From the NCBI RefSeq assembly GCF_028561335.1, contig NZ_JAQQTG010000015.1, forward strand, positions 65,433 to 129,432: DNA of 64,000 bases. Direction: 5' to 3'. The notes beneath the pieces are model-generated. The model made no database searches. It had not been told where the DNA came from and saw only the letters and a list, made by a program, of their open reading frames with translations. The translations under genes were made by a program, and so were the position numbers. This document shows positions 50,757-63,247 of this stretch, piece by piece (the first letter of the stretch is position 1; each line of letters begins with the position of its first letter). This DNA is from Aequorivita todarodis (GTDB taxonomy: Bacteria; Bacteroidota; Bacteroidia; Flavobacteriales; Flavobacteriaceae).

Positions 50757-50776
50757 AATAATTTTATTAAATCACA

Positions 50777-50794
50777 TCCCGATAGCTATCGGGA
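50777..50794. repeat. 18-bp perfect palindrome TCCCGATAGCTATCGGGA
   Basis: Self-complementary over its full length, immediately next to the heptamer array at 50797. A degenerate copy (15 of 18) stands upstream of tRNA-Ser near 7348-7365. Confidence 0.65.
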
Positions 50795-50796
50795 CA

Positions 50797-51248
50797 CAAA
50801 TCACAAATCACAAATCACGATAGCCTTGTTTTTATCTTGATTTCCTTTTTTCTACAATTGCGGAAAAAATCTTTTTTAACTCATCCGCTTCATTTATTAA
50901 TTCGACCAACTTAATAGAATGTTGGTTATTAAATTCATTTTGTAACAATTTTAACCAAAGAAGCGATTCTTTTGCTTCCTTCCGGCATATTTTTATTCTA
51001 AAATCAAAATCTTTATCACTTATATGTTCATTGGATTCTATATAATTGGCAGCAACTGACCCTGAAGACCGGATTAACTGCTTGCCATCCTCAATGTTTG
51101 CTATACTTTTTTGAAGCGAATAGATTAAATTCCGAGCTGATTTTGCAAACAAAAAGGTTCTAACTTCCAAATCATAAGGTTTTTCCATAAATAAACTTTT
51201 TCAATCCTTTTTACGGTTTGTGATTTGAGATTTGTTTTTTGAGATTTC
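50797..51248. mobile_element. Four-helix-bundle gene between inverted heptamer arrays (element A)
   Basis: Left array: CAAATCA three times (50797-50817). Right array: TGATTTG, AGATTTG, TTTTTTG, AGATTTC in 7-nt register (51221-51248). Bases 50797-50814 match the complement of 51217-51234 in 17 of 18 positions. Between them is only the gene 50832-51188. The right array ends at the stop codon of the M28 peptidase. No transposase is encoded, so any mobility would need help in trans. Confidence 0.5.
50832..51188 (-). CDS. Four-helix-bundle protein (23S rRNA IVP family)
   Basis: 118 residues. Family hallmarks: MEKPYDLEVRTFLFAKSARN at the start, then IRSSGSVAANYIESNEH and FDFRIKICRKEAKESLLWLK and a final helix LINEADELKKIFSAIVEKRK. 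Four amphipathic helices, no signal. Members of this family are encoded inside intervening sequences of 23S rRNA in some bacteria, and a relative (Avd) helps diversity-generating retroelements; no reverse transcriptase is present here. The gene is tightly framed by inverted heptamer arrays, as is a broken relative at 58471-58623. Function remains unknown; nucleic-acid binding is the usual suggestion. Confidence 0.9.
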   Translation of the reverse strand: MEKPYDLEVRTFLFAKSARNLIYSLQKSIANIEDGKQLIRSSGSVAANYIESNEHISDKDFDFRIKICRKEAKESLLWLKLLQNEFNNQHSIKLVELINEADELKKIFSAIVEKRKSR

Positions 51249-58388: not shown

Positions 58389-58680
58389 GACGTAGGACGG
58401 TAAGACATAAGACGTAAGACTTAAGTTGCCATCACTATTACTGTTTTTTGTATTTTTTTTAATTATATTTTTAAGAAATATTCTTTTCTGGGTTTTCCAT
58501 AAATCTTGTAATTATTCCTTGAATGGATTGAACCTTTCTTTCTAAATGTTCAAAGGTTTCTTTTGCCAATTCAATTCTTTCATTCCAAATTGTAAGTTAT
58601 CTAAAATTATGTCTTGCTACCATATTATTTAGGTTTTAAAAATTTAGTCTTACGTCTTATGTCCTACCGTCTTAAGTCTC
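58389..58680. mobile_element. Decayed four-helix-bundle element between inverted heptamer arrays (element B)
   Basis: The left array in 7-nt register is GACGTAG, GACGGTA, AGACATA, AGACGTA, AGACTTA (58389-58423). The right array is GTCTTAC, GTCTTAT, GTCCTAC, CGTCTTA (58647-58674). Bases 58396-58421 match the complement of 58646-58671 in 25 of 26 positions. Inside lies only the broken four-helix-bundle gene. The right array ends next to the thiolase stop codon, so the element split the beta-oxidation operon. The rest of this 304-bp gap is empty. Confidence 0.55.
58471..58623 (-). pseudogene. Four-helix-bundle (IVP family) remnant with in-frame stop
   Basis: From the ATG at 58621-58623 the frame reads MVARHNFR, a TAA stop, then LTIWNERIELAKETFEHLER and ends RFMENPEKNIS before TAA at 58471. 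The opening (RHNFR-x-LTIW) equals the first residues of many four-helix-bundle proteins (HNFKKLxIW). Only about 50 of the usual 115-125 codons are left, so there is both a stop and an internal deletion. It was not made from the gene at 50832, whose N-terminus differs, so it belongs to another subgroup of the family. Confidence 0.6.
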
Positions 58681-59870: not shown

Positions 59871-59875
59871 AATCG

Positions 59876-59980
59876 GCCCCCTCTAACTCCCCCAAAGGGG
59901 GAGAAATTGAAACGGGGTAGTTTTTTAATTAAACATTTTTTCTATTCTTACTCCTCCCCTTTGGGGAGGCAGGGTGGGGC
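59876..59980. repeat. 105-bp inverted-repeat element inside the beta-oxidation operon
   Basis: Left end with CTCCCCCAAAGGGGGAG (59887-59903) and right end with CCTCCCCTTTGGGGAGG (59953-59969) are each self-complementary. The two ends (59876-59903 and 59951-59980) also form an imperfect inverted pair of about 28 bp around an AT-rich centre. GC-rich ends are unlike the surrounding DNA. It fills almost the whole gap between the thiolase and FadB-like genes. Confidence 0.65.
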
Positions 59981-59982
59981 TT

Positions 59983-62391: not shown

Positions 62392-62453
62392 ATTTTTTTA
62401 AAGTTATTGGTTAATAGTTATTAGTTATTTGTCAGTTCGAAATAACTATTTTT

Positions 62454-62523
62454 CCTAATTCCTAATTCCTAATTCCTAATTCCTAATTCCTAATTCCTAA
62501 TTCCTAATTCCTAATTCCTAATT
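62454..62523. repeat. Ten perfect tandem copies of the heptamer CCTAATT
   Basis: 70 bp with no substitution between copies, in the 156-bp gap between the MarR gene and the FadB-like gene. Perfect identity means recent slippage, so copy number should vary between strains. It lies 63 bp before the FadB start, where a promoter or leader would be. Confidence 0.92.
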
Positions 62524-62547
62524 CTGAAGTGTTATTTTCTCTACTCT

Positions 62548-63033: not shown

Positions 63034-63076
63034 CGAAATTTTATTATGCACGCATAGTATATTATGGAGTTTTTTG

Positions 63077-63247
63077 GACTTAGGATTTAATGACGTAGGA
63101 CTGGTTGATGTAAGAAGTAGGCCTTATAGAAATCACGTCCTTCCAATTATTAAATTACGGCACGAACAGTAGTTTAAGGTCTTACGTCCTACGTCTTACC
63201 GTCTTACGTCTTACCGTCTTACGTCCTATGTCTTACCGTCTTAAATC
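63077..63247. repeat. Heptamer arrays with inverted partner (locus C)
   Basis: Right array (63179-63245): nine units of GTCTTAC or GTCCTAC/T, some with an extra C, giving 7-7-8 spacing. It covers the stop codon of the DUF488 gene (63241-63243). Its end agrees closely with the right array of element B. Left side (63077-63120) is degenerate, but GACGTAGGAC (63092-63101) is the exact complement of GTCCTACGTC (63186-63195). The core of about 60 bp between them shows no coding remnant. Confidence 0.5.

Follow-up and report, generated by a model that had tools for sequence, protein, structure and literature searches.

The window analysed here, a stretch of 64,000 nucleotides of Aequorivita todarodis (genome label G000; other G-numbers denote relatives or named genomes), carries on its minus strand a gene for an S23 or four-helix-bundle protein of 118 amino acids (50832..51188). 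The protein matches the profiles PF05635 (E 1.9e-9, 38.1 bits, curated cut-off 33.8 bits) and TIGR02436 (E 1.4e-15, 57.5 bits, cut-off 24 bits), passing both cut-offs, and is related by profile to the solved structures 2gsc and 2rld. The unit sits between two peptidase-like protein genes, not inside an rRNA gene, and an Rfam scan of the window returned one tRNA and nothing else. On both sides the gene is bounded by arrays with a period of 7 nt, referred to below as arms. The upstream arm (51217..51247, minus strand) is made up of AAATCTC/AAATCAC heptamers on the gene strand and directly adjoins the stop codon of the M28-type peptidase gene lying upstream. The downstream arm (50795..50818, minus strand) consists of 3.4 copies of GTGATTT on the gene strand and is the inverse complement of the upstream arm. 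Positions 50796-50814 and 51217-51235, both inside the arrays, are inverse-complementary at 18/19 bases, a match that contains the 17/18 bases noticed in the original prediction. It had also been predicted that the arms would form a stem holding the gene in its loop, and in the predicted RNA fold the two arms indeed pair with each other and enclose the gene (z -2.5). The downstream arm is interrupted by a palindrome read from the sequence, CCCGATAGCTATCGGG (50778..50793), which lies within its outer part and beyond which an outer heptamer copy is located at about 50770-50776. This palindrome is present in G034 and absent from the copies of the unit in G004 and G011.

The suspicion that the window holds another unit of the same plan, broken and with a different heptamer, was borne out. 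Arms of the GTAAGAC type at 58389..58427 and 58640..58678 match each other at 34/39 positions and enclose a broken S23 gene on the minus strand (58492..58623), located by tblastn with the S23 proteins of relatives. The gene remains as two pieces, with the frame disturbed and the middle missing, which match the intact gene of the relative G005 at 71% over 24 amino acids and 54% over 26 amino acids. Further along lie a gene-less inverted pair of the GTAAGAC heptamer family (63076..63226, arms 63076-63126 and 63175-63226), matching at 35/51 positions with a modest arm score of 16.5, and a solo TTCCTAA array of 10.4 copies without a gene (62440..62540), whose best inverted partner is poor (score 9.0). 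A G+C-rich palindromic repeat (CCTCCCCAAAGGGGAGG ... CCCCCTTTGGGGGAGTTAG) occupies 59871-59982 and the same gap in G029, G022 and G030, and is also found on contig C11 of G000 near 108.6 kb. It is a second intergenic repeat family, present in gaps where relatives carry S23 units.

Arms were scored by aligning the upstream flank locally with the reverse-complemented downstream flank (150-nt flanks, threshold 16), with 338 ordinary genes in a 400-kb part of this genome as controls (mean 10.1, 95th percentile 14.0, 99th percentile 19.3). The window unit scores 18.5 and, set against these percentiles, is therefore unusual by itself but not extreme; the whole set of units is decisive. A profile search of its own genome (3.33 Mb) found 13 PF05635 genes. 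By eye, all 13 are surrounded by period-seven arms, with a different heptamer for each, and all 13 reach an arm score of at least 16, compared to 8/338 control genes. The search of 20 genomes, including this one, gave 132 PF05635 matches in 16 genomes drawn from the genus and order, of which 105 were used (13 own and 92 from 15 relatives); the 27 unused matches were mostly partial or near contig ends, and removal of one unit for a short flank left 104. As expected from the original prediction, inverted arms recur around other members of the family: 82/104 units score at least 16, as does the median in 38 of the 44 site groups into which they fall, and the mean score is 20.0 for a unit's own arms compared to 10.2 between arms of different units. 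The anticipated 7-nt periodicity of the flanks was likewise found, with lag-7 autocorrelations over the 60 nearest bases of 0.46 and 0.51, compared to about 0.30 for lags outside 7, 8, 14 and 21. Classified at the threshold, the arms are exclusively inverted in 68 units, both inverted and direct in 14, exclusively direct in 8 and of neither kind in 14.

The arms have a median length of about five heptamers, detection beginning at about three. The upstream arm is G-rich in 85/104 and 69/77 units; in the PYDLE protein type (L011, L103, L104 and the window unit, L012) it is C-rich, opposite to most units. A split of the proteins based on tryptophan was tried as a predictor of arm polarity and gave no clean rule. 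In the set of named genomes described below, AGT and TAG are enriched within heptamers and ATG is depleted, and the picture is partly different in the genus. Three S23 units (L009, L010 and L013), each with its own heptamer, lie in neighbouring gaps of one operon within 5 kb on contig C11 of G000 (about 116.3-121.0 kb). A gene-less inverted pair of the GTAAGAC type is located upstream of L009 in this operon, at about 121.29 kb.

PF05635 is present in 45/61 genomes of the phylum, and 20/29 new loci from these have an arm score above the 95th percentile of their own control. A scan of named genomes yielded 590 relatives, of which the best 80 were taken and 76 had enough flank. Among these best 80 of 590, 53/76 loci exceed the 95th percentile of their own control (15/21 labelled Bacteroidota and 38/55 others). 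Arms occur, within the same best 80, in Clostridia, Planctomycetota, Patescibacteria, Acidobacteriota, Cyanobacteria, Pseudomonadota, Ignavibacteria, an Anaerolineae and a Methanophagales archaeon, and the lag-7 value outside Bacteroidota is 0.44. Scores below 16 for both inverted and direct arms were obtained for 22/76 of these named loci and 9/28 phylum loci. S23 genes were also found on plasmids, in 29 records of which at least 20 are cyanobacterial. Five of six plasmid units inspected have an arm score of at least 27.5 and one scores 12; settings include cas6-S23-cas4, parA-S23-parB and a transfer operon, and the records name diverse neighbours. On plasmid pNe_5 of Nostoc edaphicum an S23 unit (L377) lies antisense between nrdB and nrdA, against the sense rule described below. 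Phage records gave no S23 match with one query protein. The arms are a trait of the protein family rather than of this genus. The original view of the unit as a chromosomal, intergenic counterpart of rRNA intervening sequences holds in that gene and arms form a unit between protein genes; the word chromosomal is too narrow, as cyanobacterial plasmids carry such units.

Comparison of units at one site and at different sites revealed how closely the arms follow the gene. For same-site orthologues with 50-65% protein identity, the arm match is 20.8 within species compared to 13.2 across species, which means that both arms change together; above 80% identity the two figures are nearly equal. At one site with different proteins the values are 15.8 within and 9.0 across species. 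When units at unrelated sites are compared, the arms of unlike proteins score at background (about 9.7), and similarity rises to 13.5 at 60-70% protein identity (26 pairs) and 17.6 above 70% (8 pairs). One pair of 88% identical proteins has an arm family common to both, in this case as direct arms, while the flanking proteins are without similarity.

Empty-site alleles, which had been proposed as a check, were found, and neither of the two outcomes named as refuting the original prediction was obtained. The window site was readable in 23/28 genomes of the genus and is filled in 8 and empty in 15, among them G020 with a flank that is 93% identical. Most empty alleles contain no array, a short one remaining in G006, and empty alleles at site C are gaps of 22-26 nt, also without array. 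Given these alleles, the short array in G006 excepted, the S23 genes at these sites did not merely land in old arrays. The gaps beside a nearby thiolase gene hold S23 in 13/26 genomes (first gap) and 15/27 genomes (second gap, a count that takes in the broken window copy), and the second gap is shorter than 40 nt in five genomes. By score, gene-less inverted arms are found in twelve genomes at the first gap and in seven at the second; in four of those twelve (G000, G029, G022 and G030) the feature is by eye the G+C-rich palindromic repeat and not heptamers. In G034 the gap between thiolase and acyl-CoA dehydrogenase genes (L146) is filled by a tandem pair of gene-less inverted heptamer units that are nearly identical to each other. 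At one and the same site, near relatives were found to differ both in the S23 gene and in its heptamer, as exchanged cassettes. Many units keep one site across species, which indicates that movement is rare or that cassettes are swapped by ordinary recombination. In a comparison of filled with empty alleles by eye, the junctions are AT-rich and resemble the arms, so that target-site duplications are hard to discern, and the unit contains no transposase.

Heptamers related to the units are also dispersed without a gene. The GTAAGAC family, searched as RTARGACRTARGAC, has 42 matches on ten contigs of G000, often as close pairs on opposite strands, and the reversed control has 1. The number of cognate arrays is 42 in G000, where the gene is broken, and 7 in G005, where it is intact; their abundance does not follow the presence of an intact S23 gene. 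The heptamer of a Phormidium unit has 113 matches in its own genome and 0-2 in four other genomes. The reversed control of this heptamer, CTGAGGGCTGAGGG, has 143 matches in one of these genomes, G097 (Thiohalocapsa, from L292), and is rare elsewhere; these matches are evidently a separate dispersed heptamer family. Long gene-less heptamer arrays number 33 in 400 kb and 29/33 are without an inverted partner. The idea that all heptamer arrays are paired units was rejected, since 4/33 of these arrays (three loci) have a partner beyond all controls.

At a given gap, gene and arms either both occur or are both missing, the two arms evolve jointly, and proteins that resemble each other retain similar arms even where their sites are unrelated. 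An S23 gene and its pair of period-seven arms probably constitute one small mobile or selfish cassette. Recognition of its own arms by the protein, as the original prediction supposed, is suggested by the way in which arms follow protein relatedness. That the cassette moves, and in what manner, is inferred. No movement event was seen in the genomes compared, and the S23 unit carries no catalytic domain. Also counting against the cassette are the units with direct arms or with neither kind, the long gene-less arrays that lack an inverted partner, the cognate array numbers of G000 and G005, the many units that keep one site across species and the 143 matches of the reversed control.

An alternative is an element acting at the RNA level, in which pairing of the arms within the operon mRNA would be followed by an RNase III cut that frees the S23 message, as in 23S rRNA intervening sequences, and compensatory change would keep the stem. 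Both neighbours are co-directional with the S23 gene in 94/97 clear cases, the remaining three being one site, compared to 201/338 control genes; by site group sense orientation holds in 41/44, and among the best 80 of 590 relatives in 55/72. This orientation speaks for an RNA-level element, as do the predicted fold, the concerted change of the arms and the excision of the Coxiella intervening sequence by RNase III, which has been published (PMC4990558). However, an excess of arm mismatches that still pair as G-U would be expected if an RNA stem were selected, and 343 such mismatches were found compared to 415 of the opposite kind (59 compared to 81 by unit). The RNA stem was for this reason rejected as the leading reading, and the idea that such a stem is the selected object is not supported. 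Furthermore, the 8/104 units with direct arms only and the frequent solo arrays do not fit. Matched arms suit DNA-level recognition or copying at least as well as an RNA stem, sense orientation may mean merely that silent copies decay, and an RNA-level element is considered unlikely.

Chances are poorer still that the repeats are passive, with arrays made by polymerase slippage, S23 genes there by chance and template switching keeping the arms alike. The abundance of gene-less arrays would agree with this, and a published discussion of heptamers supposes that they arise by slippage (PMC4692102). Most empty alleles at the window site and the short gaps at site C, however, lack an array, matched arms are rare at ordinary genes (8/338), arms track protein relatedness across unrelated sites, and the gene-arm association extends over many phyla. 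The median dN/dS of same-site orthologues is about 0.07 (41/54 pairs with a finite estimate), which means that the protein is used and under purifying selection. This value could point to a module that serves the host by regulating or insulating neighbouring operon genes, in line with the many units that keep one operon site across species and with arrays that adjoin the neighbouring codons (median 0 nt from upstream stop codon to array start in 75 units, 7 nt from array end to next start codon in 70 units). But occupancy is patchy even where the flanks of relatives are about 93% identical, one protein and its heptamer may be replaced by another at a site, stop codons lie inside 12/104 S23 genes, and the plasmid neighbours are diverse; of the explanations weighed here a host-serving module is the least probable.

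For the mobile or selfish cassette the following course of events is proposed. An S23 oligomer would read its own heptamer, perhaps with one heptamer per subunit. A period that is kept while the letters vary suggests that it is dictated by a protein, and binding of one heptamer per subunit would keep the period of seven and arms of about five units while the letters remain free. By bridging its two arms the oligomer might cause host replication or repair to copy or move the unit, and it could act in trans on inverted pairs that carry its heptamer but no gene, as RAYT is thought to serve REPINs. Copies would last where the host operon transcribes them, the arms leaving little room for a promoter, and the sense orientation is proposed to result from this dependence. 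S23p of X. campestris is described as a homopentameric ring (PMC4990558). A reverse transcriptase as partner was rejected, as RVT_1 has no match in G000 and matches in only 5/20 genomes searched. Although PF05635 and Avd of diversity-generating retroelements are reported to be structural homologues (PMC10053308), the units differ in this respect from such retroelements.

Among the closest known relatives of the unit are the 23S rRNA intervening sequences. The Coxiella intervening sequence is described with complementary ends, an S23 open reading frame and, before this frame, tandem heptamers whose number varies between strains (PMC4990558). The paired ends to which the original prediction referred for intervening sequences with this protein family are borne out in Coxiella, with heptamers in addition. 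The units share with these sequences the protein family, the approximate size, the complementary ends enclosing the S23 gene (18/19 in the window, and the fold) and the heptamers before S23. Unlike them, they lie between protein genes of operons, with many per genome and an own heptamer for each, and their S23 gene is under strong purifying selection whereas the Coxiella frame is described as decaying (PMC4990558). The 23S rRNA intervening sequences with S23 genes may be the same element landed in rRNA. In logic, the nearest system is REPIN/RAYT, in which a protein gene lies beside its own short repeats, as in the S23 units, and gene-less inverted pairs of those repeats are scattered among the genes (PMC3116915). 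Cognate heptamers of S23 units are dispersed, some as close opposite-strand pairs, and most long gene-less arrays are unpaired. The units differ from REPIN/RAYT in that their only gene is PF05635, which is no Y1/HUH transposase, in a variable heptamer array in place of a fixed palindrome, and in the many S23 types per genome (PMC3116915).

The STRR repeats of cyanobacteria, like the heptanucleotide repeats of Xanthomonas and Nostoc and the TAACTGA repeats, are heptamer arrays between aligned genes. Such arrays have been described in Xanthomonas and Nostoc (PMC4692102), and TAACTGA repeats in Beggiatoaceae, Cyanobacteria and five Bacteroidetes (PMC4679880), the role or origin being left open in both. 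They resemble the arrays analysed here in their position between aligned genes and sometimes in their inverted pairs, but were reported without a linked gene; a term search of the text of both papers found no mention of four-helix, S23 or 23S. The exact 21-mer of the Xanthomonas GGGAATC repeat occurs in 0/229 genomes of the class drawn, a sample thus without a suitable genome. No general link of PF05635 genes to heptamer arrays was found among the matches listed in a literature search with subscription journals and bioRxiv outside its scope; the Coxiella study reports heptamers for its single intervening sequence. The association of gene and array is real and general, and was not previously connected in the literature searched.

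S23/PF05635 genes are common, and published accounts of heptanucleotide repeats give no accepted origin for these (PMC4692102, PMC4679880). If gene and repeats belong together, the role of the one and the origin of the other become testable through a defined protein with a nucleic-acid partner specific to each unit. Filled and empty alleles, which occur naturally among near relatives, and the prediction that each protein prefers its own heptamer, would then be of use, and the 23S rRNA intervening sequences would gain a probable parent element. A broader proposal, put forward tentatively and at somewhat less than an even chance, is that of a pan-bacterial class of mobile elements without a transposase, in which a ring-forming four-helix protein would read its own heptamers, conserved in their period of seven and in the match between arms but freely drifting in their letters, and disperse gene-less arrays. 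Many orphan heptanucleotide repeats of cyanobacteria, Bacteroidota and others would stem from such a class, with the rRNA intervening sequences as one landing place. The findings point to a widespread, little-noticed kind of mobile or selfish DNA.
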